Assembly: GCA_035621235.1 (NCBI GenBank)
Contig: CP141731.1
Span: 2,294,001 to 2,358,000, forward strand
DNA from: Actinomycetaceae bacterium MB13-C1-2
GTDB lineage: Bacteria > Actinomycetota > Actinomycetes > Actinomycetales > Actinomycetaceae
Length of the DNA: 64,000 bases
Reading direction: 5' to 3'
Positions 913 to 42,832 of this stretch are shown here, piece by piece. Numbering within the stretch: the stretch's first letter is position 1; every line of letters begins with the position of its first letter. The translations under genes and the position numbers were made by a program. Under the pieces are notes generated by a model that was not told the origin of the DNA, did not search any database, and worked only from the letters and a program-made list of their open reading frames with translations.

Positions 913-3900
913 CTACTTGATTCCCTGGAAGGCGAACTTGAACTGTAGTTCCCCTGCAGGGATTCGGAACTCTTCATGTGGCCTGGCGCCCCATGAATCA
1001 TCACCAGCAACACCCCGGCGAACCAGGGCGGGACGGATGAAAGTGTTCAAGATCGGTGGAAGCTCGTTGTGGTGCGACGCATTTTCGATCTCGAATGGAC
1101 TCCACGGCAACGCGGAGAACTCCATGGGCACTTCCGCTTCAAACCGTAGACCATGGCCTTTCTCATCGGTGACCTCTGCCCAACGGACCTCGGTATGGTT
1201 TCCTGACTCCTGCGGGCGTAAATACTCTGCGAGTTGATCATCCACCGATTGCTGGTAGACACCCAGACGGCCGCCACCTTGACGATCAGAGTATGTTTCT
1301 TGCGGGCCATCGCCGTACCAGGTCAGTACAGAAAGATCAGCATCCGTCTTGAAGATCATTCCGAACTCGGGAAGCTCCGGAAGTGATTCGTCTGCTCGGA
1401 GAGTTTCAGTGACCTCAATGCGTCCCTCACCGTCAACCGCATACTCAATCTCGCACTGACTCGGTGGAATGGTTGGAAGATCGTATGTGTATGTGACTAC
1501 CGCCAAACCATCACGCATCTCAAATCTGGGGCTGTCAGCCGATTGATCCACCTTCGCATAGCGAGAAGCAAGCAACCACTGTCCATCCTCGAACGAGGAT
1601 TTCCATCCGCGTTCATTCGACGTGGGCGCATGCCAGAAGTTCGCCGTGGGAACGGCTTTCAAGAGCTCGCCTCCCCGATCAGACGTGACGCCGTACTTGT
1701 AAGAGCTAAGGCCGCCCTGTAGACGGGAAAACAACGCCGAGAAATTCGGCCCGTGAACCCCAATATTGTGGATTCCCTGAACTACCTGAGGTTCTCGTCG
1801 CGCGATGGCCGAAGCGGCAGTGTCAACCTTGATAACTCCCTGCTCACTCGCGACCTCGTACGCCGCTTCAGCGTATGAGGTTGGCTCCCGAAGTTGGAAG
1901 GAGACGTCGACGACGTACTCCCCTGCTTCTGTGGGAACTTCGAAGGGGAACGGGTACTTCTTGGTCTCACCCGGGGCGACGTCAGTATTGACGATACCGG
2001 CCTCTAGAACCTCGTCTTCCTCGCACAGAGTCACCACGCACTCAAATGCGGAAGTATTCGTGAAGTTATAGCGATTCGTGACGCTGAATCCCTTATCCTC
2101 CACCTCTCCACGGATACCCTGGTAGAGATACTTGACCTCTTGCATGAAGGGTTTCGGCGTGTGGTCAGCGAAGAAGATGCCGTTCCCACTGAAGTCACTG
2201 TCGTGCGGGGCCTCGCCGTTGTCCCCACCATAACCGAAGTATTCGTTTCCGTACCGATCCTTCATCAGGATCGCCTGGTCAGCGAAGTCCCAGATAAATC
2301 CTCCCTGGAACCTCGGCTCGCGATATGCGAGCTCAATGTAGCGATCCACCGAACCGAGCGAGTTGCCCATGGCGTGCGCGTACTCGCAGAGGATGAAGGG
2401 CTTGTCGAGGTTTTCCTCCAGGAACTCCTCAATCTTGGCGGCCGGAGTGTACATCTGGCTGTATACGTCCGTGGTGTCGGGATAGCGTGGATCCCAGGTG
2501 ATTCCCTCGTAGTGAACTGGACGGGAATCGACGCTGCGGAAGTAGTTTGAGACCTCAAGAATGTCTGTTCCACCGTACGACTCATTTCCACAGGACCAGA
2601 TCACGATACTGGGGTGGTTCTTGTCGCGCTGGTACATGCTTGCGGCACGATCCAGTAATAATGGCAACCAGACCGGATCATTGCCGGGAACTGCCGCCTC
2701 ATCAGGGAAGTCCGCGTAGCGGATCAGATCCCACAGTCCGTGGCTCTCCAGATTCATTTCGTCGATGACGTAGAAACCATACTCGTCCGCTAGCTCGTAC
2801 AAGAATGAGTTGTTCGGATAGTGACTGGTGCGAATCGCGTTTAGTCCCGCTCGCTTTAGCGCGATTAGGTCGGCCTCGGTCTGTTCCCGGGTCATCACAC
2901 GCCCATCGAGGCCAAAGTCGTGCCTGTTAACTCCAAAGAAGACGATGCGCTCACCGTTAATCTTCAGTAGGCCGTCCTCGATTCCGAAACGACGCACCCC
3001 GACGCGAATGGGAATGTACTCAGTGGCGACCCCTGCCGTGTCGAGGACCTTGACCCATCCCTCGTACAGGTACGGGTCCTCGGAACTCCACAGGCGCGGA
3101 TCAGGAATGTGGGCGGTAAACAACCCCTGTCCATCCTGGCTAAACTCGCCTACACCGTCTAGCGAGACAGTCGCAGATCCCTCACCTTGTAGCTCAACCT
3201 CAACACGAACTACCGCATTCTTCAGATCGGAAGGAAGGTCGACGCCGACCTTTACGTCACGTGCGTGCACCTTTGGATAGGTACGCAGGACGACGCTACG
3301 GAACAAACCAGAGAAACGATAGAAGTCCTGGTCCTCAAGCCATGAGCCCGAGCACCACTTGACGACCTCGGCAGCCAGTTTGTTCTCCCCATCGACCAGA
3401 TAGGGAGTTAGATCGAACTCGGAAGGTGTGAAGGTGTCCTCCGCATATCCGACGTAGTGCCCATTGAGCCACACGACAAGCGCGCTCTCAGCACCATTAA
3501 AGGTGACGGTAACACGCTCCCCTTCCTCCAGTTCGCGTTCGAGGACGAAATCCTTGACGTAGCAAGCCGTCGGATTAAACTTCATCGGAGCATTCGGGGG
3601 CGCAATCTCCTCATTCCCATCCCACGGATACTGAGTATTCGCATACTGCGGACGATCGTATCCCTCCATCTGGATATGGGCGGGAACCCGTATGTCGTCC
3701 CATTCAGAGGTATCAAACTCAAGTGATTCAAACCCCGCCGGCGCACTGTTCGGGTTCTTCGCATACTGGAACTTCCAAAGACCATCCAGTGATTGCTCAT
3801 AGCTGCTTACATCCCTTTGGGACTCTTTGGTATCAGCGAACCAGCGGTGGTCGGAATGGGCGGGCAGCCGACCTTCGGAAACAAATTCGGGGTCGGACAA

Positions 3901-5383: not shown

Positions 5384-6103
5384 ATGGGAAAAACCGAGTC
5401 CAGCGCCAGCGGAAGAAGCCGCCGAGGACCTGGCCGTCCCAAGGCCGGAAGTGAGGACAAGTCAGCTCGTATCCTCGAAGAAGCACTCAATCTGTTTTCG
5501 CGAGTCGGTTACGACGGTGCTTCGCTCGAGGACATTGCTAGAGCCTCCGACCTGTCAAAAGCAGGCTTGCTGCACCACTACCCGTCTAAGGAAGCATTGT
5601 TTGCCGCGGTCCTAGAAGAACGTGACAGACGTTCGACTCTGACGATCACCGAGACTCTCGGTCTTCCCGTTGACCGCCAGACGCTACCTTCCGGCCTAGA
5701 AGTAGATGCCTGGGAGGCTCTCAGGTCTTGGGAGCATGTCCTGGAAGAGAACTTCCGTAATGTGGCGGGCACCTCGTTGTACGTAACGCTTGGTTCCAGT
5801 GTTACCAATCCTGACCATCCTGCGCACGAGTGGTTCACCACTCACCTATCCGTATTTCTCAACACGTTTTGCGAGGTACTTGAACAGGGCAAGAAACGGG
5901 GCACAGTCGACCCTGCCGCTCCTTCTATGCAAATTGCTCGTATTCTGGCCGCGGTTTCAGATGGCCTTCAGTTGCAGTACCTCGCCCATGTCACGGACCT
6001 GGAGAGCGGAGACGAAAAGTCGTTGAAAGCGCTGGATACGGACATCGTCAGCGAGGCTCATTTGGTCATTCAGATGATCGAAGATCGCTGGAGAATCAGA
6101 TAA
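5384..6103 (+). CDS. TetR-family transcriptional regulator
   Basis: TetR/AcrR regulator of 239 residues. After a basic, glycine-rich N-terminal arm (SGRSRRGPGRPKAG) the HTH runs ARILEEALNLFSRVGYDGA, then SLEDIARASDLSKAGLLHHY and PSKEALF, which is canonical. The C-terminal ligand domain is helical and not assignable. The start is ATG 5384; GTG 5381 in the same frame is the alternative. It follows the LacI gene by 184 bases and is closed by a strong terminator. The neighbours on either side belong to other systems, so the target is unknown; the adjacent lac operon regulator or the APC permease gene are only possibilities by position. Confidence 0.9.
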   Translation: MGKTESSASGRSRRGPGRPKAGSEDKSARILEEALNLFSRVGYDGASLEDIARASDLSKAGLLHHYPSKEALFAAVLEERDRRSTLTITETLGLPVDRQTLPSGLEVDAWEALRSWEHVLEENFRNVAGTSLYVTLGSSVTNPDHPAHEWFTTHLSVFLNTFCEVLEQGKKRGTVDPAAPSMQIARILAAVSDGLQLQYLAHVTDLESGDEKSLKALDTDIVSEAHLVIQMIEDRWRIR

Positions 6104-6139
6104 CTAAACCCTGATCAGAAACTTGTTGGGGTGCAATGA

Positions 6140-6181
6140 GGGCGGGTGGCGCAGGTTTCCCGTCACCTGCACCACCCGCCC
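6140..6181. terminator. Bidirectional terminator between TetR and APC permease genes
   Basis: Long hairpin: outer arms GGGCGGGTGG and CCACCCGCCC, one mismatch, inner arms GCAGGT and ACCTGC, 8-nt loop. It lies between the convergent ends of the TetR gene and the minus-strand permease. There is no clear T-tract on either side, so termination efficiency is inferred from stem strength and position. Confidence 0.65.
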
Positions 6182-6211
6182 CGTCATTTGCGACAGCCGG
6201 AGAACGACTCC

Positions 6212-8395
6212 TTAGCTGTCTGCGGTCTGTGTCCCTCCCTGATTAGACGAGTCCGGCTTACTCGGTCCGTCATCGCTATCGGTCGAACTCCCACCAGGTG
6301 TCTGAGGGGTGGCCGAACCCGCATCGCCGTGGGTTGCTTCCACCGCCTGTTCGGCGGCGGCCGTGGCCGCTTTAGCCTTGCGTTCGGCCTCCGCTAGTTG
6401 TGCATCTGCCTTGGCTTCATCGGCGAGTGCCTGCGCCGCAACCTCAAGCTTCTTGGCCTGAGCCGCAGTCTGTTGTGCCTGCTGCGCTGCCGCTTGGGAA
6501 GCCGCATCCAGATCCGCGGGGAGCACCGTAGAAGCAACTGCTTCTGCGGATGCCTGAGGAACAGGAACATGCCTCGGCCTGCTTGCCCGGGTCGGCTTCA
6601 CCTGTTCGGTGTCTACAGCTGTGGCAACCTGGCTCGCTACTGCCGTAGCAACGGAAGTTGTGCCTGCCGAGGCGGCCCCTTGCACCTTTGCTGCCGCCAA
6701 CTCTTCTGGCGTCGGTTCTCCTCTGTGTTTCTTGATGTCGTCATACTCCGGCGGCAGCATGATTCGGTCATTCGGCGAGTAGAGACGCTTGACGGGTAGA
6801 CCCATGGGGTTCTGGCCCTCGGCCATCATTTCACTTGGTACGTTCGACAGAACCTTCTGAGGCTTCTTGAGTCCCTCAAGCTCCCATGTGAAAGGAGCGA
6901 AGGTATTCTTTGGATCGACCCAATCGTGTTTCTTGGACTCCTGGTAGATCCAGATACAGAGCGCCAAAACCACCGCGATAATCACCAGAATAATCGTCAC
7001 GTAAGTGGTACCGGATCCGACCTCCTTCTTGACCTGTTCTGGAGGATACAAAGCCAAGACAATACCAAACACCGACGCTGCCAACCCAATCCCTGCAACG
7101 ATCCAGGCACCGATCATCCCACCGGGTACTACGAAAGTCCGAGGACGGTTCGGTTGCTCATACCGAAGTCGCAGGAACGAAACGAACATGAGGACGTAGT
7201 AGACCATGTACAGGATCGTGACCGCCTGAGTTACCAGGATCACGAATCCCTCTACGTTCGGAAGGAGGAAGACAACGAAAGCGATCAGGGTCATACCTGC
7301 CATCTGCAGGTACATCAGGCGCGAAGGCATGCCGTGCTTGTTATTGTTCTGCAGAACCTTCGGGAGGAAACCACTTCGACCAGCCTGACCCAACATAAAG
7401 GAGGGGCCGGCGAGGTTCGTGATCAGGTTTGCCATTCCGGCGCCAAGGCCGAGGTACACAAACACCATATACAGCCAGGGCATGCCGATGGTCTCGCCCA
7501 GTGCCCGATAGGTGGCAAACAACGTGTACAGGACGTTGATGTCCTTATTGGGAATCACCATCGCGATGATCAGTGTTCCAACAATGAAAATGACCAGTGA
7601 CAGGATCATGGCGATAAACATTGCGATTGGGAACTGCTTGCGGGGGTTCTTCAACTGCTTAATGTGCGCAGCGTTCATATCGATGCCCGCAAATGAGAAC
7701 AAAACGCCTGCCGCCAACGCGAGCGAAGTAAAGTTCTTGACGGGTGGCACCAGTCCCGACGGAGTGAAGTCGATGTTCGGTTTATTGCCCTGCATCAGCC
7801 AAACGACCGCAAGAATGGTCATTACTGCGAGCGGCAGGAACGTTCCTAAAAGAACACCGTACTTCGCAACGCCAGCAAAAACCTTTACGCCCTTGGTCGC
7901 AACCCAGCAGATTGCCCAGTAATAGACCAACCAGCCGCACATGATAAGCAGTTCGTGCGAGGGGTTCTCGGCAAACTTCACCGCACCCTCAAAGTCGGAG
8001 GTGTAGAACTTGATCGTCGCCGAGGCGCTAGGGATGCCAGAACCAAAGTTGAAAGTTGTTTGAAACCAAAGGATCAACAGACAGGTGAACGCCCAACCCT
8101 TACCCATCCCCTCGCCAACCCAACGAAAGATACCGCCTCGCTGGGACCAGCCGGATGCCAATTCGGCGGCAACCAGACCAGTCGGAAGAAAGAACACAAT
8201 TGCACCGATGGTGAAAAGCGTGACAGAAGACAGGCCATAAAACGCCTGCTGAACATCGTTGCCGATTCCGGCGACGATGGTCACATTCATCATCACCAGG
8301 GCGAGCGTCGTTATATATCCTGAGCCGCCGCCAGTTGGTTTTGCGCCCACGGCTCCAGCTTTGGCGCTGGTCGGGGAGCTCGTTTGAGAACTCAT
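6212..8395 (-). CDS. GadC-like APC amino-acid antiporter with long coiled-coil tail
   Basis: Twelve-TM amino-acid/polyamine/organocation transporter of the glutamate:GABA antiporter type. The motifs LASGWSQRGGIFRWVGEG, FAGIDMNAAHIKQLKNPRKQ and NLAGPSFMLGQAG are shared with the family and with the permease at 42833-44386. The transport domain ends near residue 520. After it comes a cytosolic region whose last ~170 residues are Ala/Gln/Lys-rich, heptad-like, and finish in a Ser/Asp/Gly-rich tail, which is unusual for GadC relatives. The start is ATG 8395, with AAAGG eight bases upstream; ATG 8401 is too close to that site. It is the last gene of the minus-strand hydrolase block. The substrate is probably an amino acid or derivative released by the upstream enzymes. 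Confidence 0.88.
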   Translation of the reverse strand: MSSQTSSPTSAKAGAVGAKPTGGGSGYITTLALVMMNVTIVAGIGNDVQQAFYGLSSVTLFTIGAIVFFLPTGLVAAELASGWSQRGGIFRWVGEGMGKGWAFTCLLILWFQTTFNFGSGIPSASATIKFYTSDFEGAVKFAENPSHELLIMCGWLVYYWAICWVATKGVKVFAGVAKYGVLLGTFLPLAVMTILAVVWLMQGNKPNIDFTPSGLVPPVKNFTSLALAAGVLFSFAGIDMNAAHIKQLKNPRKQFPIAMFIAMILSLVIFIVGTLIIAMVIPNKDINVLYTLFATYRALGETIGMPWLYMVFVYLGLGAGMANLITNLAGPSFMLGQAGRSGFLPKVLQNNNKHGMPSRLMYLQMAGMTLIAFVVFLLPNVEGFVILVTQAVTILYMVYYVLMFVSFLRLRYEQPNRPRTFVVPGGMIGAWIVAGIGLAASVFGIVLALYPPEQVKKEVGSGTTYVTIILVIIAVVLALCIWIYQESKKHDWVDPKNTFAPFTWELEGLKKPQKVLSNVPSEMMAEGQNPMGLPVKRLYSPNDRIMLPPEYDDIKKHRGEPTPEELAAAKVQGAASAGTTSVATAVASQVATAVDTEQVKPTRASRPRHVPVPQASAEAVASTVLPADLDAASQAAAQQAQQTAAQAKKLEVAAQALADEAKADAQLAEAERKAKAATAAAEQAVEATHGDAGSATPQTPGGSSTDSDDGPSKPDSSNQGGTQTADS

Positions 8396-8426
8396 TTTCA
8401 TTGCCTTTCGCGTGGCGAAGAAGACG

Positions 8427-8465
8427 GGTGGGTGGGCACTTGATGGGAACTCTAGCCCACCCACC
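8427..8465 (-). terminator. Intercistronic hairpin between pepC-like and permease genes
   Basis: Perfect 11-bp inverted repeat (GGTGGGTGGGC and GCCCACCCACC) with a 17-nt loop in the 103-base gap between the C1 peptidase gene and the downstream permease. On the minus strand a pyrimidine-rich GTCTTCTTCGC follows. It may be a partial terminator that lowers permease expression, or an mRNA-stability element. Confidence 0.5.
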
Positions 8466-8498
8466 GGCTGCTATTGCCGAACCAGTGCTGGTCCGTGC

Positions 8499-9842
8499 CT
8501 ATAGCGGATCGAAGCTGCTCCAGTAGGGCAGGATGATGGGATCTGTTCCAAAGACCTTCTGTAGCTCTTCGGGAAGCAGATCCTTACGAACGGCAACCTC
8601 ATAGACAAAGTTGTCGAACCATTCGTCGCTCATGACGTAGTACCCGTTGTCACCGACCTTCTGCCCGTGAACGTCAGCACCCCACGAGTTCTCTACCTTC
8701 CACCTACGGGGCTTCCCGTCAACGATGTCAACTCCGGCGATCGTCATGGCGTGAGTGGGTAGTGAGTCGCGCATCAGGTAACGCTGCGCCTTATCCATGG
8801 TGAACTCGACACCGAAAAGTTCATCGAAGCTGAACAGGTCCATGTCCATAACTCCGTTATGAATGTCGGTGTGCTGCATTACGTCACAACCGAACCAAAT
8901 TGGTTCACCGGCCTGAAGTTGCTTGAGAGCGACCGCTTTCAGATCGTCCATGCTGACATTCAGATAGCGGTTGGGTCGACCCTGGATGATCTCATTGGAC
9001 ATCTCGATACCAAATACCCGGTTGTAGGGCATGGACTCGATCGGAACATTGATAACCCCGACGTAGTCATCAAGATTGATCGGAACGTACTTGGCCAGAA
9101 ACTCCAGTGGAGTTAGGCCAAAGTCTGAATGGTACTTGTCGTCCTTGTCCCTGTACTCAAAATCAATGGTCTCCGGAGGAGTTCCAAGGGCCACCGAGAG
9201 TATCCTGTAAACCTCGTTCAGCATTCTTTCGCGAACCGAGTCAAGTTCCGCCTCCGAAGCCTCCTTCTGCACCATTGTTCTTAGCTCTAGTGCGTCCTGA
9301 CGAAGCTTCTTGTTGAGGATAGTGTCGAGTTCGGACGAGTTGATACTAGCGTGGGTCTCGTCCATCCACTTCTTCGGAATCACGCCGTATTTCTTCACGA
9401 TCGCGGCGATGATGTCGAAGTCCCCTCCGTCCTGTTGAGGGGTGTTCAGAAGGAACGTAACTCTCCGGTCTGACAGCGGAGCATCGGCGGAGTCGATAAT
9501 CTGCTGATGAAAGAAGTTCGACTTCTCAAGCTTGTCGTAGAAGAACGTGTAGTTCTGCGACAGTTCGAAGGATCCGTGGGTCAAGTTAAGATCTTTTTCT
9601 ATATGCCAACGCAAAGTGTTTAGACAGGCGTACATCCAACAGCGCCCGGACTGGTTCTGATTGGCAACAGCCTCAGAATCGACGTCAATTGAGAAAACGT
9701 ACTGATCCCTTGCGACCACGTCGGCGTTCTCACACGAATCCAAGATTCCGTTTTTCATCGTGGCACGCTGCGCCACATGCTGCGTCTCCGCTTTCGCGTA
9801 TTCATCCCTCATTTTCTTAAGGGCATCTTTGGTAAGCTCCAT
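8499..9842 (-). CDS. pepC: C1-family aminopeptidase (PepC / bleomycin hydrolase)
   Basis: Cytoplasmic papain-fold cysteine aminopeptidase of 447 residues, the usual PepC length. Catalytic Cys68 lies in NQSGRCWMYA, the His in PTHAMTIAG and the Asn in VENSWG, all intact. PepC/bleomycin hydrolase forms a hexameric barrel with the active sites inside and trims amino-terminal residues from peptides and amino-acid amides. No signal peptide. It lies downstream of two PLB-like hydrolases and upstream of a GadC-like permease, separated from each by a hairpin, so it probably completes degradation of an imported peptide or conjugate. Confidence 0.94.
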   Translation of the reverse strand: MELTKDALKKMRDEYAKAETQHVAQRATMKNGILDSCENADVVARDQYVFSIDVDSEAVANQNQSGRCWMYACLNTLRWHIEKDLNLTHGSFELSQNYTFFYDKLEKSNFFHQQIIDSADAPLSDRRVTFLLNTPQQDGGDFDIIAAIVKKYGVIPKKWMDETHASINSSELDTILNKKLRQDALELRTMVQKEASEAELDSVRERMLNEVYRILSVALGTPPETIDFEYRDKDDKYHSDFGLTPLEFLAKYVPINLDDYVGVINVPIESMPYNRVFGIEMSNEIIQGRPNRYLNVSMDDLKAVALKQLQAGEPIWFGCDVMQHTDIHNGVMDMDLFSFDELFGVEFTMDKAQRYLMRDSLPTHAMTIAGVDIVDGKPRRWKVENSWGADVHGQKVGDNGYYVMSDEWFDNFVYEVAVRKDLLPEELQKVFGTDPIILPYWSSFDPL

Positions 9843-9881
9843 TGAGCTACTCCTTCACTTGTATTTGTTAGGTGTGGTGGT

Positions 9882-9925
9882 TCCGTGGGTGCCCGATCCC
9901 GGCCAAGAGAGTGGGCGCCCACGGA
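9882..9925 (-). terminator. Intercistronic hairpin upstream of pepC
   Basis: 13-bp inverted repeat with one wobble (TCCGTGGGTGCCC and GGGCGCCCACGGA) and an 18-nt loop, in the gap between the first PLB-like gene and pepC. No T-tract follows on the minus strand, so attenuation or RNA processing is as likely as full termination. Confidence 0.5.
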
Positions 9926-9933
9926 GTCCTTTG

Positions 9934-11292
9934 TTAATCGAGAACGGTCCAGGGCTGGGACGGTCTCGATTCCAGATATCCTTCCTGCCATGCCCAAAGA
10001 GGGTGTTCGCGCAGGAACTTGTCTGCGTCGAATTCACCGCCATCGGCCCGTCCGTACCGACCCCAGATCCTTACGCCCAGAATGTCATCTGCGTCCGCGG
10101 CTTTCCCGTCGACGGAACCCGCCGGGTAGAACGGGACATTCCACACCGCATTTGGATCATCGGCGTAGTACATGGGATCAACGTCGTAATACGAGCAGAC
10201 ACCGCGTGAACTCGGATTCTCATACCCCAAATATGGGTCGTACTTGTCGGCAAGAATCTTCTTTGCGACGTCGGTATCAATTTTCCCGTGATACTGGTCG
10301 AGCAGTTGCATGAGTCGCTGACGTCTTGCCCCGGTCTGCTGACGAGGATCATTGAAACCAACATCCGCACACTCAAGATTGCGGATTCGCGGATCGAAGG
10401 TCGCGTTGCAGCCAAAGAATGACCCATCAAAGGTGCGTTCGAGGGACTGGTAGATCAGTCCTTCCTCGTACCTGGCTATCTCCCCTGTATTGGCGTCGGC
10501 GACAAGCCAGGCGTTCGCGTAACCGCCGTTATTGTCCTTGTTTAGCGTAGCGACCCACTCATCGATGGAACCTGAAAACTGAACGGCATTCCGGGCACGA
10601 ACGTACTCGGGCACTCGCTTTTCGTCGTATCCGCGAAAGCCCGCCAGTGTCGTCTCGGTGATACCAAGTCCAGCTGAATTGACATAGAAATCAGTCATTG
10701 ACGCGAGATAGCCTGCGACAGTCTGCATTGTGAACGCGTGGCCCTCGTCAGGGTGAATATGCGCGGCAATATTGAAGTATTGACCAGACCAGAACTCGTC
10801 AAAGCTCTCGTGCGCAATCACGACTTTCCCATTGGTGGTCGCCGAGCCAGTGGCGACAATGCCCGAGCAGTGCGAACCGCGAGGGCCCTGCGGGGGGTTC
10901 TTCGAGTACTGTGCGGCCACGGTAGGCCACCAGTAGTCAGTAAGCTCCATCCAAGCGTTCCAACCGATGAGATCATCGACGGAGGTTTCGGTGCCCGCGG
11001 CAGTGAAACCATCTGCCATGCCTTCCAGTTCCTTCATCAGGTACTCGGGAATCTTGTCCCTGTGCATCTTGGCCGCGGACTCAACGAAGAATGAGTAGTC
11101 CATTCCAAAGCACTGGAGTGTCATGTAGGTATAGGTTCTCAGCGCTTTCGCGTACTGCTCTGCCAGCAGGTAGCCGTGCTGAAACCCAAGCGAGTACGGG
11201 TCGCCGTAGGTCTTGACGTGATACCAGCCGTCCTTCTCTTCAAGAGAAGCACGATCGACAATCGCCTGCTGGTCAGACGTTAGTTCAGCCAT
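9934..11292 (-). CDS. Phospholipase-B-like / C45-type Ntn hydrolase, copy 1
   Basis: 452-residue protein resembling the phospholipase-B-like (LAMA/PLBD) branch of N-terminal-nucleophile hydrolases, often labelled C45 family in bacteria. The predicted nucleophile is Cys142 in GSHCSGIVATG, exposed by self-cleavage in the family. The PLB-like block follows: HESFDEFWSGQYF, VAGYLASMTDFYVN, GLGITETTL. Further conserved stretches are DNNGGYANAWLVAD and NTGEIARYEEGL. No signal peptide or TM helix is seen, although eukaryotic members are lysosomal. It is a close paralogue of the next gene, with a 2-base gap. Chemistry is amide or ester hydrolysis; the substrate is unknown. An AGGAA sequence precedes the ATG. 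Confidence 0.78.
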   Translation of the reverse strand: MAELTSDQQAIVDRASLEEKDGWYHVKTYGDPYSLGFQHGYLLAEQYAKALRTYTYMTLQCFGMDYSFFVESAAKMHRDKIPEYLMKELEGMADGFTAAGTETSVDDLIGWNAWMELTDYWWPTVAAQYSKNPPQGPRGSHCSGIVATGSATTNGKVVIAHESFDEFWSGQYFNIAAHIHPDEGHAFTMQTVAGYLASMTDFYVNSAGLGITETTLAGFRGYDEKRVPEYVRARNAVQFSGSIDEWVATLNKDNNGGYANAWLVADANTGEIARYEEGLIYQSLERTFDGSFFGCNATFDPRIRNLECADVGFNDPRQQTGARRQRLMQLLDQYHGKIDTDVAKKILADKYDPYLGYENPSSRGVCSYYDVDPMYYADDPNAVWNVPFYPAGSVDGKAADADDILGVRIWGRYGRADGGEFDADKFLREHPLWAWQEGYLESRPSQPWTVLD

Positions 11293-11294
11293 TG

Positions 11295-12689
11295 TCAGTT
11301 CCTATCTTCCAGTGGTCCAGTCAGTTCTGTTTCGGTCACACCGTTGTTGAAATACGTCCAGGGCTGGGAAGGACGGGACTTCAGGTACCCCTGTTGCCAG
11401 TTGAACTGCGGATGCTGGCGCAGATGCTCATCCGCATCAAAGACCGTTCCGTCGGCACGTCCGAAACGGCCCCACATACTCATGTTCAATACGTCGGTTG
11501 CGGTAGCGAGTTTGGCGTCCACCGATCCGAACGGATTGAACGGAACTCCGTGAGACGAGAGGAAGTGGAGCGGATCAGCGTCGTAGTGCGAGCAGATAGT
11601 CCGCATTGAAGGGTTGTTGAAACCAAGGTAGACATCGTAGGTGTCAGCAATCATGGCCTTCCCGACTTCGGCGTCGATGTGGCCGTGGTGCTGATCAAGG
11701 AGGTTCATCCATCGGACCCGTCGAGCTCCCGTAGGCCATCGAACGTCGTCATAGCCATAGTTTCCACATTCAAGGTGCATGATTCTCGGATCGCCTGGGG
11801 CGTTATCTCCGAAGTAAGACCCGTTACGAGTGGTGACTAAGTTTTGATAGATCAACCCCTCCTCGTACCTGGCGATCTCGCCAGTGTTCGCATCCCCGAT
11901 CAACCACGAGTTCGCATACCCGCCGTTGTTATCCCGATTCAGGGTGTCCACCCATTCGCTAATGGTCTTTGCGTACTGCGTCGCCAACCTTGAGCGCACG
12001 TACTCGGGCGAGCGCGAAGCATCATAGCCCTGGAAGGCACCGATCGTCGTTTCAGTCACGACCAGACCGGCAGAGGTCACCCAGAAGTCGGTAAACGATC
12101 CGACATACCCGGGAACCGACTGCATAACCATCCTCGATCCCTCGGTTGGGGTCAGGTCAAGCAGTAGGTTGAATGATTGGCCGTTCCAGAAATCATCGAA
12201 GCTGGTGTGCGCGATGACGAGTTTGCCGTCAACGGTCGCAGATCCCGTGGCAACAAATGCCGAGCAGTGAGAGTCCTTCGGCGACTTTGGGCCGGACTTT
12301 GCGTACTTCGATGCGACGGTTGGATACCAGTAGCCCGTGAGTTCCGTATACGCATTCCAGCCAATGATGTCATCGTAGGTCGCAGGCACTCCGGCCGCCG
12401 TCAGTCCGGCAGCAATGCCCTTCATTTCGTCGGCGATTTCCTCTGGGATTTTATCCTTGTGGAGTTCGATGGCGTGCTCTTGGAAAAAGTCGTATGTCAG
12501 ACCGTAGTTCTGATACGTCATTGCTCGCGTTACCCGCAGAGCTTCGGCCCATTCGTCTGCGACCAGGTAGCCATGTTGGAACCCTCGCGCGAACGGCTCG
12601 CCCTTGACTCGCAGATAAATCCAGCCGTTTATTCCTGATCTACTTGCCTCTTGGAGCCACTGCTCTTGTTCGCCAGTAAGTCTTGCCAT
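11295..12689 (-). CDS. Phospholipase-B-like / C45-type Ntn hydrolase, copy 2
   Basis: 464-residue paralogue of the downstream gene; the two align nearly end to end and both place the predicted nucleophile at Cys142 (here DSHCSAFVATG). Conserved blocks are HTSFDDFWNGQSF, VPGYVGSFTDFWVTSAG, VTETTI, DNNGGYANSWLIGD and NTGEIARYEEGL. It has a slightly longer C-terminal end. No secretion signal. It starts 18 bases after the stop of an APC permease and is almost certainly cotranscribed with it. Two kept copies suggest different substrate preference or a hetero-oligomer; neither can be decided from sequence. Confidence 0.78.
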   Translation of the reverse strand: MARLTGEQEQWLQEASRSGINGWIYLRVKGEPFARGFQHGYLVADEWAEALRVTRAMTYQNYGLTYDFFQEHAIELHKDKIPEEIADEMKGIAAGLTAAGVPATYDDIIGWNAYTELTGYWYPTVASKYAKSGPKSPKDSHCSAFVATGSATVDGKLVIAHTSFDDFWNGQSFNLLLDLTPTEGSRMVMQSVPGYVGSFTDFWVTSAGLVVTETTIGAFQGYDASRSPEYVRSRLATQYAKTISEWVDTLNRDNNGGYANSWLIGDANTGEIARYEEGLIYQNLVTTRNGSYFGDNAPGDPRIMHLECGNYGYDDVRWPTGARRVRWMNLLDQHHGHIDAEVGKAMIADTYDVYLGFNNPSMRTICSHYDADPLHFLSSHGVPFNPFGSVDAKLATATDVLNMSMWGRFGRADGTVFDADEHLRQHPQFNWQQGYLKSRPSQPWTYFNNGVTETELTGPLEDRN

Positions 12690-12707
12690 CGCTGATTACC
12701 CACTTCC

Positions 12708-14132
12708 CTACTTCGTTGTACCCGGGGTCGCCGGGGGTGAAACGGCGCAGTTCTGCCGCCCAGGATCACCGAGGAAAAACCTCATCAACGGGGTGTCTCC
12801 CCTTGCGATGTGGTCCTTGATGTCCTGCTGATAGACGATGTCATATGCTTTTCGACGCGCCCAGATCGGGAATCCAACCGCCACCATTGCCGCACCAACC
12901 AGGACCTGCCACCATCCGAGAGACGGAATCTGAATCAGCGCCGTCACAATTGCGAGGATTGGGATAGTCGGTCCGAGAGGGAGTTTCATTCCGGGAGTGG
13001 CCCACTTCTTCAGTCCCATCTTCAGTGCGGTAACATCCACTATCACCATTGCCGCAATCGCCGCCACGTTACAGAACACGACGATTATCTTTAGAGCTTC
13101 CTTCCCGATATCGGGAAGGACCCCGATTAGCAGAAGAACAAGGGTAATCACTGCGGTCATGGCAACAGATGAGATCGGATTACCCGCCTTGCTTAGTCGT
13201 CCCAGTTTTGATGGCAGGTCGCCGTTGCCGGACATATGCACTAGAAGATCGGAGTTTCCAAGCATGTTGGCATTGGCTCCCGAAAGTGTTGAGACACACG
13301 CAGCAATTGCGACCAGGTAGGCGCCCCAGTCCCCCACCAGGGCCTTTGCTGCGATCGTAAGTCCGTGTTCGGCAAAGCCATCGGCGCCGGTCTGCTTCGA
13401 CATGACCAAAGCAATGGCAACGCCAATGTAAACGACTGCAACAACGCCTAACGAGGTAATGATCGCTTTTGGCACAGTCTTCTGCGGATTCTTCACAGAC
13501 CCTGACATGTTCGTGATCACATTGAATCCGGTATAGGCGGTGAACAATAGCGCCGTAGTCGACCAGATAGAGGACGACCCGTGCGGGATCATGTTGCTAA
13601 GTTCTGCCGGAGCAAAGTGAATAAACCCAAAGACGACCAGCAGCAAAAGTACGGCAAGCTTGAACGCAACCATCGCGGTTTCAGCCTTACCAACCAGTGC
13701 GGCAGGACCAAAGTTGAGCAGTGCGAGAAGCACGGCAGCGCCCAGCGCAAACCAGATCGACTGTCCCTTTAGGTCCGGGAAGAAGGTCATTAGGTAGTTT
13801 GCAAACGACATCAAGACATATGCGATACCGGTGACGCCGCAAATGTAGAAGGCCCACATCGCCATGAAACGCCACATCGGAGACAACTCGGTTGCGATCG
13901 GGGCGTATCCTGATTCGCCTGGCTTAGCTCGCGAGGCGACCGCAGCGAAGCACAGCGCGGAAAGAAGCATCACGAGACCGGCGAGAATGTAAGAAATGAT
14001 TGCGCCGGGACCGGCTTCTTGCACAACCATGCCGGAAAGAGCAAAAACACCGCCGCCGACCATCGTTCCCACCGCGAATGCGATGAGTGGGATCATCCCT
14101 AAGGTCTTGCCCTTACTACTACTGGCGTCCAC
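12708..14132 (-). CDS. APC-family amino-acid permease
   Basis: 474-residue, about 12-TM transporter of the APC superfamily. The family start motif (GTMVGGGVFALSG in TM1) and the amphipathic loop FNVITNMSGSVKNPQKTVPKAI are present. It differs clearly from the two GadC-like permeases in the window and is closer to the basic amino-acid/polyamine branch; the substrate is not assignable. It starts at GTG 14132 with an AGGAGG ribosome-binding site eight bases upstream. It heads the permease-PLB-PLB-pepC-permease run, with the LuxR-type regulator immediately upstream, so it is the probable importer for the substrate of the hydrolases. Confidence 0.9.
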   Translation of the reverse strand: MDASSSKGKTLGMIPLIAFAVGTMVGGGVFALSGMVVQEAGPGAIISYILAGLVMLLSALCFAAVASRAKPGESGYAPIATELSPMWRFMAMWAFYICGVTGIAYVLMSFANYLMTFFPDLKGQSIWFALGAAVLLALLNFGPAALVGKAETAMVAFKLAVLLLLVVFGFIHFAPAELSNMIPHGSSSIWSTTALLFTAYTGFNVITNMSGSVKNPQKTVPKAIITSLGVVAVVYIGVAIALVMSKQTGADGFAEHGLTIAAKALVGDWGAYLVAIAACVSTLSGANANMLGNSDLLVHMSGNGDLPSKLGRLSKAGNPISSVAMTAVITLVLLLIGVLPDIGKEALKIIVVFCNVAAIAAMVIVDVTALKMGLKKWATPGMKLPLGPTIPILAIVTALIQIPSLGWWQVLVGAAMVAVGFPIWARRKAYDIVYQQDIKDHIARGDTPLMRFFLGDPGRQNCAVSPPATPGTTK

Positions 14133-14238
14133 TTATGTCGCCTCCTAGCGCCTGTGCATTCCCCGATTGGGGTATCTGATGCTCAGAGCGTAGGTCAGCC
14201 CTTCCCCTTGAATCGTCAGCCGGGGTTACTTCACCCTC

Positions 14239-16809
14239 TCATTTCCCCCCTCGGTCTAAAAGGCGGAAACGTTCGACGATTTCAAGGGCGTCTAGGCGGT
14301 CAGAAGCGCCCAGTTTTCGATAGAGGGTTTTTAGCTGCGATCGCACAGTTCCGACAGTGACAAACCTGGCCTCGGCAATCTGGCGATTTGTCCGTCCAAG
14401 GGAGAGCATTTCCAGAATTTCTCGCTCACTCGGAGTGAGCCTGGGGTCTTCGACCCAGCGAATTGCGCGCTTGTCCTCGATGGAGTCCTCAAACACCTGA
14501 GAAAGCATCTGTGGAATCTGGTCCGAAAGTGCCCTCAGTGCATCAAATGCAGCCTGAGGAACAAAACGAAGAGCAAATCTAAAGAGCCGTGGCGCCGGAT
14601 ACTGACGCCATACTGTCTTCAGTGAGAGAACTGACCTTTCTTGATCGCCGCGCAGAGCCTGTGATGCGGCTGTGATCGTCCATGCGTAAACAGCAAGTCT
14701 GGGCGGGATGGGCCAATCGATCGATTCAAAAGTCGCGTAGGCGGCATCCGCGTCGCCCTCCCACTGTGCCAGGGTCATACGCGCTAACTTGGCGAATACA
14801 TCGTCGTAGGTGGAGAGGGAATCAACCCAAGCCCTTGCCTTATCGCCGGCGCCGATACTGGCGAATGCGATGACTGCAGCCAAGACAAGAAAGCTACTGG
14901 GCCTGCCGTCATCCCAAGACCTGGAACTGCGAGAGAGCTTCATCTCGATCTCGCTGGCGCTTAGTTCGTCTGGCGAGGCTACTGCCCAACCAACTAGAAT
15001 CAGCGCGTCAAGTGCGGATCTCGAGACGCCGCTATCGTGCGCAATAATGGGGCGTAGAAATCCGAAAGCTTCGCCATCTGCGCCCTCTTCAAGATCGACT
15101 AACGGTTGTGCTTGGGAATGAGAATCAGTAGAAGGTCGCTCTCCGGTAGGCGACATTGATCGAAGACCGTGCAGGTCTTGCTCGGTTACCAGGCTCACGT
15201 GCTCGTAGAAGTACAGCCGATCCTTTGGGTCACTGTACCTGACGATCGCCTCGGCCAGTTCGAGGGCCTCATCGTGCAGATCTGCCTGAAGCGCTGACCA
15301 GTAAGCCAAATAACAGGCACCGACGGAACGAATTCGGGCAGCATCGTCTATCGGCTTACGGGCACTCTTCGCTGTGTCGACCAACTCGATTACGTGCCTC
15401 ACGTAGCGTGAGGCTTCCCCGCGATGACCGGCCAAGGTAGCGCCGTAAGATAACAGGCCTCCTCGTTCGATTTCCTCGTAGGTACTGGTCGCCTGCCAAC
15501 CGCGAAGCCTCTGGAATGCGGCATCTGCTTCGGCCCGCAGTTCCGGATCAAATCCGTGGCTTCTGAGTCGGAGTTCTGTCTGCAAAAGAGTCAGTGCCGG
15601 TGCCCGCGCCGGGTCGACGGAAGCTTCTTCCAGGCACCGCGTTGCCCACTGGTCGCAGAACATAAGGAACCAGCGGAAGTTTCTTCTCACCAGTTCCTCG
15701 GCTTGGACCACGCTCCCCGTCTCCAGAAGGTAAATCAGTTGTGCTGCGATCCGTCCACTTCTGCGGACATCAGCCAGACCACTCCCAAGTCGAGCCGCCT
15801 TGGACGCACTTGGTTCACCCTCGGCAATGGCTCGCCACACATCACCGCGCCAACCCCATTGTTCAACCCGCAGTTCGTCGTCGGAATCCCGGTCGAACAG
15901 CGGAATACTAGAAAAACGAGTGACCATCGAGGTCGCCAGTTCGTGCGACATGTCATCGCCGGCAAGAAGATCTGCCGAAACGGCTCGGAACCGCCGCGCT
16001 TCTCGCAGCGCCTTCCCAATTGGGTATTCTGAAAGCCTGGTCTGTTTGACAGCCCCATCTAGCAGACCTAGGAGCCGGAGCTCGATCCGCGGATCCGTCG
16101 CCACCCATGTTCCCACGTGGCCGGGAGCCGTCATGCGTTCGATGTGCTGGCCTACGAGATAGGGGCAGCCCTTCTCGCGTTTACCGTCCAGAAGAAGATC
16201 ATTCAGCATCCCGTCATCTCCGAGCAATTGGCGAAGCGCCGAGAGTTCCTCCGCGTTGAAGCTGAGTTCTCCCTCGTTCATCACCAAAGCATCTGCCAGG
16301 ATTGACTTTGCTTCGCTCTCTTCTGGCTCAGAGAGTTCGGCCAACGAGCCCCGGTCCAACGGAGGATATCCATACGTTCCCACGATGCACCGCACCCAGG
16401 GGCGCGCGGCCAGCACCACGGCCAGTTCCCCCCAAAAGGAGTCATCGGCTCCTGCGTCGCGTCCGTCTAGAAAGCAGATTACGTCGCCAGCACCGCCGCG
16501 AACGCCATCCAGAATCGATCCGAGATCCTGGATTCCGCGAGCCCAATGCAGCTTTAGGTCGGGCCTGGTCCTGGACAGATAGTCGGCAGACTGCTCTTTC
16601 CAGGTCCGTTTCCCCCAACCTGGAAGCGCAGCAAGTACAAGGAGTTGCGGAAGATCAGCCCACAGGCTCTCAAAGCGCGAACGATAAAGAAGTTTTGAAG
16701 AGGTAACTGGGATCTGACTTGGTTGCCACCAGTGCGGCTGAACTATCTGGTTCGACCGAGCATGGAATCCGTCATCGCCCATGCGCAGGACCTCGCTCTC
16801 GTCACGCAC
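14239..16809 (-). CDS. Large LuxR-family (LAL/MalT-like) regulator
   Basis: 856-residue transcriptional regulator with an N-terminal ATPase-like domain, a long helical-repeat middle and a C-terminal LuxR HTH (LTPSEREILEMLSLGRTNRQIAEARF, then VGTVRSQLKTLYRKLG). The P-loop reads ALPGWGKRTW: the Lys is kept but the next Thr/Ser is replaced by Arg, so nucleotide binding may be altered. VICFLDGRDAG is a possible Walker B strand. The start is GTG 16809 or ATG 16782, neither with a convincing ribosome-binding site. It lies 106 bases upstream of the permease on the same strand and most plausibly activates the permease/hydrolase operon in response to its substrate. Confidence 0.88.
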   Translation of the reverse strand: MRDESEVLRMGDDGFHARSNQIVQPHWWQPSQIPVTSSKLLYRSRFESLWADLPQLLVLAALPGWGKRTWKEQSADYLSRTRPDLKLHWARGIQDLGSILDGVRGGAGDVICFLDGRDAGADDSFWGELAVVLAARPWVRCIVGTYGYPPLDRGSLAELSEPEESEAKSILADALVMNEGELSFNAEELSALRQLLGDDGMLNDLLLDGKREKGCPYLVGQHIERMTAPGHVGTWVATDPRIELRLLGLLDGAVKQTRLSEYPIGKALREARRFRAVSADLLAGDDMSHELATSMVTRFSSIPLFDRDSDDELRVEQWGWRGDVWRAIAEGEPSASKAARLGSGLADVRRSGRIAAQLIYLLETGSVVQAEELVRRNFRWFLMFCDQWATRCLEEASVDPARAPALTLLQTELRLRSHGFDPELRAEADAAFQRLRGWQATSTYEEIERGGLLSYGATLAGHRGEASRYVRHVIELVDTAKSARKPIDDAARIRSVGACYLAYWSALQADLHDEALELAEAIVRYSDPKDRLYFYEHVSLVTEQDLHGLRSMSPTGERPSTDSHSQAQPLVDLEEGADGEAFGFLRPIIAHDSGVSRSALDALILVGWAVASPDELSASEIEMKLSRSSRSWDDGRPSSFLVLAAVIAFASIGAGDKARAWVDSLSTYDDVFAKLARMTLAQWEGDADAAYATFESIDWPIPPRLAVYAWTITAASQALRGDQERSVLSLKTVWRQYPAPRLFRFALRFVPQAAFDALRALSDQIPQMLSQVFEDSIEDKRAIRWVEDPRLTPSEREILEMLSLGRTNRQIAEARFVTVGTVRSQLKTLYRKLGASDRLDALEIVERFRLLDRGGK

Positions 16810-17019
16810 CCTCAGGACTCACCATACCGTCGAGGAACATTCTTGCCCCTTTAGCAGCGCCGATAATGTTCGCGCAGCCAGAGACGAGACGGCCCAAATC
16901 TTGGTCACTCCAAGGGAAATGGCGAGTACCACTACTTGTTTGTAGCACGCGACGAGTTTATTTGAGGACGGTGTCCGGCAAGAGAAATGAAATATCGGTC
17001 ATCAGCGCGATAGGTAACC

Positions 17020-17047
17020 CTGCTGTCGGCCGCGAGGCTGACAGCAG
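17020..17047 (+). promoter_or_regulatory. Hairpin with GCGA tetraloop upstream of clpP pair
   Basis: Inverted repeat with outer arms CTGCTGTC and GACAGCAG, extended inward by four pairs (one G-U) to a GCGA loop: a 12-bp stem about 40 bases before the first clpP start. It could be an operator for a ClgR/PopR-type regulator or a leader-RNA structure. Confidence 0.45.
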
Positions 17048-17057
17048 ATAAGGCGGT

Positions 17058-17073
17058 TTCCGTTCAGTCGGAA
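17058..17073 (+). promoter_or_regulatory. Inverted repeat just before clpP start
   Basis: TTCCG, six bases, CGGAA; ends about 15 bases before the ATG. Short, and may be chance, but it lies next to the larger hairpin in the same leader. Confidence 0.25.
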
Positions 17074-17088
17074 CGTGATGATGGGTTC

Positions 17089-17742
17089 ATGAGTGATGCA
17101 TCTAAACCTCCAGTTTTCACCGAGTCGTTCAGACGTGAACTATACGATCAGCGGGTTCTAGTACTTGATGGCGAGTTAACAGACGATAACGGCATGCTCC
17201 TGGCAACGCAGTTATTCTCGCTAGCGACTACCGATCCGCGTTCCGAGATCGCGCTGTGGATTCACTCCCCCGGTGGCTCCGTCCCCGCCATGGTCGCAAT
17301 TCGCGATCTGATTCATTTGATTCCAAACGAGGTCTCAACTCTGGCACTAGGGATCGCCTATTCGGCCGGACAGTTCTTGCTAACGGCCGGTACAAGAGGA
17401 AAACGGCGAGCATTGCCAAATGCCAGGATCCTCATGCATCAAGGCTCTGCAGGCATTGGTGGTTCGACAGTCGACGTGGAACTGCAGGCCGGCGACCTAA
17501 GGTATACGCGTGACACGCTACTCAAGCTGACGAGCGAGGATACGGGCCAGCCGATTGAAAAGGTTTTCGAGGATTCTCTCCACGATCACTGGTACTCCGC
17601 AGAAGAAGCCCTCGACTATGGGTTCATTGACACCATCGTACAAAGCTTCGAAGAACTCCTGCCCCGGACAAGTGACAAAACATCAGGGTTTACCTCACGG
17701 TCTCTGGACGCGAGTTCTGCTGATATCAAGGAGCCAAAATGA
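17089..17742 (+). CDS. clpP: ATP-dependent Clp protease proteolytic subunit, catalytically complete copy
   Basis: 217-residue ClpP subunit of the cytoplasmic ClpXP/ClpCP protease. The catalytic triad is intact: Ser92 (GIAYSAGQFLLTAG), His117 (NARILMHQ) and Asp166 (HDHWYSAEEALDYGFID). The substrate-channel SPGGSV motif is present. There is a C-terminal extension of about 25 residues. The stop codon overlaps the start of the next clpP by four bases (ATGA), indicating coupled translation and probably a mixed ClpP ring. No tig or clpX gene adjoins, so this is probably a secondary pair like clpP3-clpP4 of Streptomyces rather than the main clpP1P2; that is inference. Confidence 0.94.
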   Translation: MSDASKPPVFTESFRRELYDQRVLVLDGELTDDNGMLLATQLFSLATTDPRSEIALWIHSPGGSVPAMVAIRDLIHLIPNEVSTLALGIAYSAGQFLLTAGTRGKRRALPNARILMHQGSAGIGGSTVDVELQAGDLRYTRDTLLKLTSEDTGQPIEKVFEDSLHDHWYSAEEALDYGFIDTIVQSFEELLPRTSDKTSGFTSRSLDASSADIKEPK

Positions 17743-18332
17743 GTCAAAGCTACACAATTCCCAATGTGATTTCTCAGAGTCCGCGAGGCGAGCGGATCAT
17801 GGACGTCTACTCACATCTACTCACCGAGAGAATCATCTATCTCGGCACACCTATTGACGTGGGCGTCGCGAATGCGATCATTGCCCAACTGCTCTACCTT
17901 GAGTCATCCAGCACCGACTTTGACATCAATTTCTACATCAATTGCGAGGGCGGCGACCCAAGCGCGATGCTGGCAATCTACGACACCATGCAGTATGTAA
18001 AAGCGAGCGTGGCCACTACCTGTGTTGGACAGGCAATCGGTGTAGGAGCGATCCTTCTCGCCTCCGGAACGAGTGGCAAACGCTCGGCACTACCCCACAC
18101 TCGCGTCGTACTCCATCAACCCAGCAACCAGGGAAGACGAGGAACCATACCCGACCTTATTCTTCAGGCCGACGAGGCGGTGCGACTCCGCTCGGAACTG
18201 GAGACCGTGCTGGCATATCACAGTGGACAAACGGCCGAACAACTACGCGCTGATACCGATCACGATCGGGTGTTTACCGCGCAGGAGGCAAAGGATTATG
18301 GGCTACTCGATCAGGTAATAACCCAGCGATGA
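17739..18332 (+). CDS. ClpP-like subunit lacking the catalytic serine (ClpR-like)
   Basis: 197-residue ClpP paralogue. The fold motifs are kept (NCEGGDPSAM, LPHTRVVLHQPSNQ with His126, DHDRVFTAQEAKDYGLLD with Asp176), but the serine motif reads CVGQAIGVGAILLASG: the residue at the catalytic position is Gly101 (codon GGT, 18039-18041) instead of Ser. The open frame and otherwise conserved sequence argue against decay. It would be proteolytically silent, comparable to ClpR of plastids and cyanobacteria, and probably assembles with the upstream active subunit, with which it is translationally coupled. It ends six bases from the convergent regulator gene. Confidence 0.9.
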   Translation: MSQSYTIPNVISQSPRGERIMDVYSHLLTERIIYLGTPIDVGVANAIIAQLLYLESSSTDFDINFYINCEGGDPSAMLAIYDTMQYVKASVATTCVGQAIGVGAILLASGTSGKRSALPHTRVVLHQPSNQGRRGTIPDLILQADEAVRLRSELETVLAYHSGQTAEQLRADTDHDRVFTAQEAKDYGLLDQVITQR

Positions 18333-40332: not shown

Positions 40333-41511
40333 CTACTTCGCCCAACCGTAATCGGTGATCGGTATTGCACTGTGTTCTATCTCCGGTGCCAGCTCGGGAC
40401 GGTAATCGAACAGATGACTACTTCTACGGATGAAATCATCAGCGAGCACCACGAAAGACAACCACGATGCGTATCTGTCGTACTCCCCTTTCCAGTCGCT
40501 GGGAGGAGGAAGCTCGGCCATCTCGCTTACAGACTGCCGGAGAGAGACAAAACGGCTGACGTAGTCCCTGTCCCTGGAAGCATCTCCAATCTGAGCAGCG
40601 CGGACCGCACATGCAGTGAACTCATCTGCTCCGAGTGGACTAACCTTCTCGGGTTCCTTCCATCTGAGAAGGTAATACATCTGGGACCGGACGCCCTCAA
40701 ATGAGTCCTTTAGCCGAATTAGTTCTGGCACTTTCGACTTCGGGTGTTGCGGAGGCAGTCCGTACTGTATGCCGGTGATGGTTCCGGCAACCATGTAGAC
40801 AGCGAACGGCATTGAGAACCGATCTTTGCCACTGTAGAAGTAGAGAGCAGAGTGATCAGCTGCGATCGAATCAAAGTATCCGTTCATTGACGATCTGGTC
40901 GTTGCAAGATGCTCTTCGAGGCTGGTTGGCTCTTCTACTGGAAGATACGGGATAAGTGAATCAACGTTCAAAGTCACACGGGTCGTGCTGTTTGGAAAAC
41001 AAGCACAGAGCGTTCGAAGGGCTTCGATTGAGTTGAAGATGTTTATCAGGAACGCGATTACCAGGGAAAGAAACAGCACACTGAACAGTGTCTCAATAGC
41101 GCTAACAACACTTACCCAGGAAACCTGAGGCGAGAGTCCGTCGGCTCCCACTGTTGCGAACTGGGCGATGCTTAAGTAGATCCCGCCCACGAGGCCTCCC
41201 GGCGCCCCACTTTCCACTTTCAGGTGTCCAAGCTGAATCGCACCCAGGTACACCAGGCTGAAACCGCCGACGATGCCCGCAACCCACAGTCCGATTCCAG
41301 AGACCAAAGTCAGCCCTGTAAGCGAACGATAGAACGGACGTCTTATGGCAGTGGGGAAGCCCCTGGCAATCCAGTGGGCTCCCTTCCACTGCCACCTCAA
41401 GAAGCGGTTGAAAAACAAACCACGTTGGTTGTAGTTGAGAACCGTGAAGAACGTGTCCACCAAGGTAAACAGAACCAGCAGAGTTCCAACCGCTATCAGC
41501 AAGTAAGCCAC
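40333..41511 (-). CDS. Two-TM ion-channel-like membrane protein
   Basis: 392-residue protein with three to four N-terminal hydrophobic segments, one pore loop and a long cytoplasmic C-terminal domain. Pore region: GGIYLSIAQFATVGADGLSP between TM segments, i.e. the architecture of a K+ channel (TM-P-TM), but the selectivity filter reads TVGAD rather than TVGYG. The C-terminal part (about residues 195-392) has no recognised RCK fold. It could be a non-selective or anion-conducting relative; activity is not predictable. Upstream neighbour on the same strand is a nitrilase-like gene, 10 bases away. Confidence 0.7.
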   Translation of the reverse strand: MAYLLIAVGTLLVLFTLVDTFFTVLNYNQRGLFFNRFLRWQWKGAHWIARGFPTAIRRPFYRSLTGLTLVSGIGLWVAGIVGGFSLVYLGAIQLGHLKVESGAPGGLVGGIYLSIAQFATVGADGLSPQVSWVSVVSAIETLFSVLFLSLVIAFLINIFNSIEALRTLCACFPNSTTRVTLNVDSLIPYLPVEEPTSLEEHLATTRSSMNGYFDSIAADHSALYFYSGKDRFSMPFAVYMVAGTITGIQYGLPPQHPKSKVPELIRLKDSFEGVRSQMYYLLRWKEPEKVSPLGADEFTACAVRAAQIGDASRDRDYVSRFVSLRQSVSEMAELPPPSDWKGEYDRYASWLSFVVLADDFIRRSSHLFDYRPELAPEIEHSAIPITDYGWAK

Positions 41512-41521
41512 TTGCCCACCC

Positions 41522-42823: not shown

Positions 42824-42832
42824 TGACTCCTC

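Follow-up and report, generated by a model that had tools for sequence, protein, structure and literature searches.

The window analysed here is a stretch of 64,000 nucleotides (56% G+C), positions 2294001–2358000 of a 2.58 Mb one-contig genome in the genus that also includes Scrofimicrobium canadense and 'Actinomyces minihominis'. S. appendicitidis, at 64% G+C (PMC12281968), is an unlikely match. Six minus-strand open reading frames with short intergenic gaps lie at 6212–16809, and both the frames and their families are as the original prediction of a six-gene, one-strand locus had claimed. In transcription order they encode a LuxR-type regulator, an APC permease, two PLB-like hydrolases (PLBb, then PLBa), a PepC-type peptidase and a GadC-like permease:

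14239–16809, minus strand: LuxR-type regulator, first gene (856 aa; C-terminal GerE HTH, degenerate P-loop)
12708–14132, minus strand: APC-superfamily amino-acid permease (474 aa; AA_permease_2)
11295–12689, minus strand: PLB-like/C45 predicted Ntn amidohydrolase b, PLBb (464 aa; Phospholip_B and C45 profiles)
9934–11292, minus strand: PLB-like/C45 predicted Ntn amidohydrolase a, PLBa (452 aa; predicted nucleophile Cys142; the copy kept across lineages)
8499–9842, minus strand: PepC/bleomycin-hydrolase-type peptidase of a module-specific subfamily (447 aa; Peptidase_C1_2; C68, H364 and N385; altered C-terminal tail)
6212–8401, minus strand: putative GadC-like antiporter with an extra C-terminal tail (AA_permease_2; longest open reading frame 6212–8464, 750 aa)

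The gaps between these genes measure 106, 18, 2, 91 and 97 bp in transcription order, the last counted from an ATG at 8401. We consider this ATG (729 aa) a more likely start of the GadC-like gene than the GTG at 8464, because a GAAAGG stretch precedes it. Consensus scans of 5900–17300, which are weak evidence, returned zero terminator-like sites against 9.2 ± 3.0 in shuffled sequence; the single promoter-like site, against 5.7 ± 2.7 in shuffled sequence, is on the plus strand. Gaps of 2–106 bp together with zero terminator-like sites are only suggestive of a single transcription unit, and internal promoters are possible because the gaps of 91 and 97 bp give them room. Among RNA elements searched for in the window, tRNA alone reached the gathering score.

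The regulator ends in a GerE HTH (PF00196, 38.2 bits in a profile search). Its P-loop-like ALPGWGKRT has no Ser or Thr directly after the Lys, and the MalT model scores 23.5 bits against a cut-off of 537. No LuxR relative was found by tblastn (E ≤ 1e-3) in the fetched stretches around the clusters of the two congeners, loci L009 and L010 (assemblies G088/G595 and G070/G596), and as far as tested this regulator is local to the present genome. Upstream of the APC gene of 'A. minihominis', where the window has its LuxR-type gene, L010 carries an AraC-type regulator (2128–3171; HTH_18). Divergent from the window's LuxR gene are two adjoining ClpP-like genes at 17089–18332, read from their translations. 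The APC gene, with AGGAGG preceding its GTG start (by eye), encodes a permease with 81–84% relatives inside both congeners' clusters.

The hydrolase–PepC–GadC neighbourhood is conserved across several families

Relatives of PLBa occur at 31 named contig loci in Scrofimicrobium, Bifidobacterium, Eggerthellaceae, Atopobiaceae and Coriobacteriaceae, as recovered with PLBa as query from named genome contigs, a scan that picks up close relatives only. Neighbours were called by tblastn with known members and by a codon-model gene finder. By tblastn, 29 of the 31 loci have PepC downstream of PLBa, at most 3.1 kb away and always on the same strand, and 27 have a GadC-like gene near PLBa, again always on the same strand, with L025 contributing only a piece at the contig edge. 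PepC is missing from L031 and L039, and GadC from L021, L031, L033 and L039; at every miss, the contig breaks off on the side that carries the gene in relatives, and the GadC of L033 was found on another contig of what the coordinates indicate is the same genome, G829. The original prediction took the order of the six genes to suggest one pathway and implied that they travel together. This stands for the hydrolase, PepC and GadC-like gene, referred to below as the module, and is not supported for the LuxR gene, the APC permease and the second PLB, which are local: the window-type APC permease and second PLB were seen in the genus of the window alone (31 loci, tblastn), and the APC permease of other lineages' clusters is of a different type, 21% identical to the window's.

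Gene order differs between lineages. Bifidobacterium has PLB-PepC-GadC, with an S10 carboxypeptidase gene next in 8 of 9 loci, and two further Bifidobacterium genomes have PLB-(PepC)-GadC-S10-APC. Carriers that we take to belong to the class Coriobacteriia show either PLB-PepC-GadC-APC or GadC-APC-S10-PLB-PepC, and the two congeners of the window genome show APC-PLB-GadC-PLB-PLB-PepC. Because the three genes travel together across families in more than one gene order, a single pathway is a fair inference. Other genes join them less regularly: across the 31 loci we counted an S10 carboxypeptidase in 15, a second APC type in 12 and a C69 dipeptidase in 7. A search for S10 in six genomes of the window's own genus gave no match, although it was run without a positive control and shows little, and the S10 protein had nothing at 0.001 against PDB sequences. 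The Atopobiaceae order is PLB-PepC-GadC, and in 5 of 6 loci PLB is followed by an antisense gene for a polysaccharide deacetylase; this gene (10711–12306 in L035, and in four other Atopobiaceae loci) stands before PepC where the contig reaches.

The association also holds when genomes with and without the hydrolase are compared, in Fisher tests whose p values ignore the relatedness of the genomes. In Bifidobacterium, to which G601 (B. pseudolongum, locus L016) belongs, PLBa is present in 12 of 112 genomes. Module-type PepC, called at a minimum of 67% identity to the B. pseudolongum copy (next best 39%), occurs in 11 of the 12 PLB-positive and 0 of the 100 PLB-negative genomes (p 2.3e-14); module GadC, called at no less than 64% (next best 32%), occurs in 12 of 12 and 1 of 100 (p 2.9e-15). 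In the family of G265 (n=138), module GadC is present in 13 of 13 PLB-positive and 0 of 125 PLB-negative genomes (p 1.7e-18). PLB was called there at 57% or above, once in two pieces, with one genome that has a 27% PLB match left uncounted; module GadC matched at 58–67%, one copy with a further piece at 50%, against a best of 32% in the PLB-negative genomes. Across both counted groups, module GadC occurs without the hydrolase in 1 of 225 PLB-negative genomes, a count in which a missed copy is possible, since in many genomes only 7 or 10 of the first-look GadC candidates were scored. One Bifidobacterium genome, G627, keeps adjoining PLB and GadC genes and lacks module PepC, which makes hydrolase and exchanger the tightest pair in this genus. 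In G634, two tandem module GadCs follow GlmM and def (L065, 7116–11085), the position that the cluster takes in 7 of 9 Bifidobacterium loci, with neither PLB nor module PepC.

Distribution and history

The prediction had framed this neighbourhood as one to be sought across Actinomycetales. It is conserved in several families, but it is not a general trait of that order: in its own family, PLBa was found in 3 of 200 genomes, the window genome included, all of this genus. A sample of the phylum gave PLBa matches in 17 of 396 genomes, again with the window genome included. Three of the other 16 matches are close and all have the module (G265 is the genome of locus L037), four stand at 44–47%, and nine are weaker. 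Around the four 44–47% relatives, the fetched stretches (about 1.7–10 kb per side) showed neither module PepC nor module GadC. Two of these, from other actinobacterial families (L060, 9788–11296; L063, 7866–9308), were inspected and have lipoprotein-like N-termini by eye; the 44–47% proteins are possibly secreted relatives. Named carriers of the cluster include Bifidobacterium pseudolongum, B. choerinum and Adlercreutzia, and some carrier names, taken as names and apart from isolation records, point to the rabbit, pig or hamster gut.

Three of the window's genes, PLBa, PLBb and PepC, cluster with their congener counterparts in phylogenetic trees. The window GadC is nearest by path to that of an Eggerthellaceae locus (L011, 71%), with the tree leaving its exact position open, and the GadCs of the congeners split off deeply on a branch of their own. 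Shared descent of the window GadC with its operon neighbours is not supported by the tree, as the neighbours group with the congeners and GadC does not. This departure implies that the cluster exchanges parts, and the deep branch of the congeners' GadC that the permease is inconstant even within the genus. Sparse presence in distant families, together with the tree topologies, suggests horizontal transfer.

Hydrolase, peptidase and exchanger families

All parts of the module are assignable by sequence to known families. The two hydrolases, 57% identical to each other, match Phospholip_B (PF04916; 63.9 and 51.4 bits, cut-off 27) and the NCBIfam C45 proenzyme model (NF040521; 135.5 and 155.6 bits, cut-off 85). 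C142, H161, T215, N296 and R323/R324 are invariant in 33 PLB-like sequences, an alignment that includes both window copies and three copies per congener and leaves out L017, L027, L031 and L039. A 2009 paper gives the active site of PLBD2 as C249, H266, T330, N432 and R463, and states that the substrate was then unknown (PMC2739207). T215 of the hydrolase corresponds to PLBD2 T330 by alignment, and C, H, N and R were matched by motif and spacing, without structural superposition.

An AlphaFold2 model of the PLB-like hydrolase (pLDDT 87.9) predicts an Ntn alpha-beta-beta-alpha fold. Its best PDB matches by Foldseek (E 1.6e-18 for 3fgw and 8.2e-17 for 2x1c) are PLBD2, isopenicillin N acyltransferase and PLBD1, followed by CV2077 and acid ceramidase, and its fold matches also include the C69-family dipeptidases 5imh and 5img and penicillin/cephalosporin acylases. 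With PLBD1/PLBD2 and isopenicillin N acyltransferase (C45) the cluster enzyme shares the Ntn fold and a predicted Cys nucleophile with His, Thr, Asn and Arg. It differs from them in being bacterial, apparently cytosolic and encoded in an operon-like cluster, and is 14–18% identical to them in fold alignments. The cytosolic location is likely, because the PLB-like sequences have no evident signal peptide at their start (by eye).

Module PepC matches Peptidase_C1_2 (PF03051, 565 bits) and, over its full length, bleomycin hydrolase (7v5l, E 1.8e-99). As in the PepC/bleomycin hydrolase (C1B) family, it has the catalytic Cys, His and Asn: C68, H364 and N385 are kept in all 41 aligned rows, 33 from the module and 8 housekeeping. 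In this family the C-terminal tail sits in the active-site cleft and determines exopeptidase behaviour, and a tail of the WDPMG[AS]LA type is usual. Seven of the eight housekeeping rows have such a tail, and the eighth ends WDALM. The module rows instead end in P[YF][WY]xxF[ND]P, a tail present in 32 of 33 (two of the 32 come from one genome, and the 33rd row ends at a contig edge) and in 0 of 8 housekeeping rows. At 36–42% identity to the full-length housekeeping copies, module PepC is in its sequence a subfamily distinct from housekeeping PepC. The window genome encodes a second, unlinked PepC, 42% identical to the module copy and of the type carried by two congeners without PLB (36–41% to module PepC), and both types were also found in each of the 8 named Bifidobacterium genomes searched. 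Module PepC may also do general work, because no other PepC was found in 7 of 18 genome rows (one genome fills two rows), including both module-bearing congeners and several Coriobacteriia.

The GadC-like gene belongs to AA_permease_2. Its best NCBIfam model is GadC (TIGR03813), at 403.2 bits against a cut-off of 650, and it is also below cut-off for NF053662 (326.2 against 640) and TIGR00910 (200.1 against 673.5). The window also has a gene for a true Gln/GABA GadC, at 42833–44386 (TIGR03813, 703 bits against 650). Of 202 positions invariant in 28 module GadCs, an alignment that leaves out both congeners' copies, 99 differ in the window's true GadC; judged by these residues, the module GadC is distinct from it. 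The 28 proteins share a conserved block at about residues 491–540, numbered from ATG 8401, followed by an Ala-rich and weakly conserved tail.

A candidate uptake-and-cleavage system

Gene content, conservation, co-occurrence, conserved catalytic residues and subfamily distinctness are established by these results. For function, we assign a probability of roughly 45% to a dedicated uptake-and-cleavage system in which the GadC-like permease exchanges precursor for product. The permease would import a small molecule containing an amide-linked amino acid, for which an N-acyl amino acid, an isopeptide, a gamma-glutamyl compound and a short peptide are candidates. The probably cytosolic PLB-like Ntn hydrolase would then cleave the amide bond, and the modified PepC, elsewhere also the S10 carboxypeptidase, would take off remaining residues. 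One freed amino acid would exit through the exchanger, paying for the next uptake. A further product may be imported or returned by the extra APC permease, with the LuxR-type protein as the probable regulator of the cluster here. This order of import, deacylation, trimming and exchange, which we infer from the genes, is plausible; exchange is likewise a conjecture from the permease family, as a GadC-type sequence neither proves exchange nor fixes the substrate. Also weighing against the model are the two tandem GadCs of G634 that lack the other module genes, the separate GadC branch of the two congeners, the 99 positions at which the true GadC departs from the module GadCs, and the genome rows in which module PepC is the sole PepC found.

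The closest known arrangement is the glutamine-dependent acid-resistance system GadC-YbaS/GlsA (AR2_Q), in which a GadC-family exchanger works with a cytosolic amide hydrolase, often encoded adjacent, so that an amide enters and its product leaves. E. coli GadC takes in Gln and releases the Glu that the glutaminase YbaS makes inside, and in several bacteria gadC has glsA next to it (PMC6250119). Because this pairing is known, exchange of an amide precursor for its own hydrolysis product is the simplest model. The present cluster differs in that its hydrolase is an Ntn C45/PLB-like protein and not a glutaminase, PepC (and S10) join, and its GadC-like protein falls under the GadC cut-offs and has an extra tail. 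Among the titles and abstract openings listed in searches of open-licence PMC papers, none describes the cluster or module. A more specific version of the exchange model is more tentative: an undescribed system of gut Actinobacteria and Coriobacteriia that combines a tailed GadC-like exchanger, an Ntn amidohydrolase and a PepC with a rebuilt, specificity-setting tail, and that may serve one host- or diet-derived amide-linked amino-acid conjugate. If true, the exchange model would give a metabolic context to bacterial PLB-like proteins, relatives of animal PLBD2, and would mean that the GadC principle, with a precursor coming in and its hydrolysis product going out, reaches beyond glutamine to further amides. 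It would also single out a few genes, open to experiment in named gut species, that probably process a specific gut metabolite.

The main rival, suggested by the peptidase-like nature of the added enzymes (S10 in 15 and C69 in 7 of the 31 loci), is general peptide scavenging, in which PLB-like, PepC, S10 and C69 proteins would act as cytosolic exopeptidases on peptides from other importers and the permeases would move free amino acids. Intracellular peptide breakdown of this kind is familiar from lactic acid bacteria, where cytosolic exopeptidases, PepC among them, act on peptides that the cell has taken up; the cluster peptidase differs in its link to an Ntn amidohydrolase and a GadC-like exchanger. 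The C69-family dipeptidases among the hydrolase's fold matches and the genome rows with module PepC as sole PepC found (7 of 18, two rows from one genome) also fit scavenging. A general function, however, would need neither a separate PepC subfamily beside a second PepC at 36–42% (in the window genome and in 8 of 8 named Bifidobacterium) nor a GadC so tied to the hydrolase that it occurs in just 1 of 225 PLB-negative genomes, and we regard scavenging as rather unlikely.

Acid resistance, in which intracellular amide cleavage would free a base and the exchanger remove the acid as with GadC/YbaS, is improbable. A GadC-like exchanger does stand beside an amidohydrolase, and GadC-glutaminase systems are established (PMC6250119). 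The six genes of the cluster, however, include neither a glutaminase nor a glutamate decarboxylase, the cluster GadC scores 403 against a cut-off of 650 with a true Gln/GABA GadC encoded elsewhere in the window, and PepC and S10 have no role in such a scheme.

Quite improbable, too, is detoxification, with the hydrolases inactivating amide-type antimicrobials and a permease expelling the products. Penicillin/cephalosporin acylases are among the fold relatives and PepC belongs to the bleomycin hydrolase family (7v5l, E 1.8e-99), but this is family resemblance only, and both permeases match amino-acid permease families and not drug exporters.

That housekeeping genes are merely neighbours by chance or frozen order is hardly credible: 7 of 9 Bifidobacterium loci do share one site, after GlmM and def, and so are not independent, yet at least three gene orders exist across families, other bifidobacteria have the cluster at further sites, PepC and GadC are subfamily-specific, and the genes co-occur across PLB-positive and PLB-negative genomes (with p values that ignore relatedness).

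Two further genes follow the window's true GadC on the same strand (40333–44386 for the three), encoding a 430-aa protein (41522–42814) and a 392-aa membrane-like protein, neither with a Pfam match. The 430-aa protein looks nitrilase-like by eye (APEFYW, GVEICLDH), which is only an impression. In S. canadense (L078, 12249–14572), a 52% relative of this protein with a shorter N-end lies divergent from and adjoining the module APC gene, and a relative of the 392-aa protein, recognised by eye, is likewise divergent beside it.
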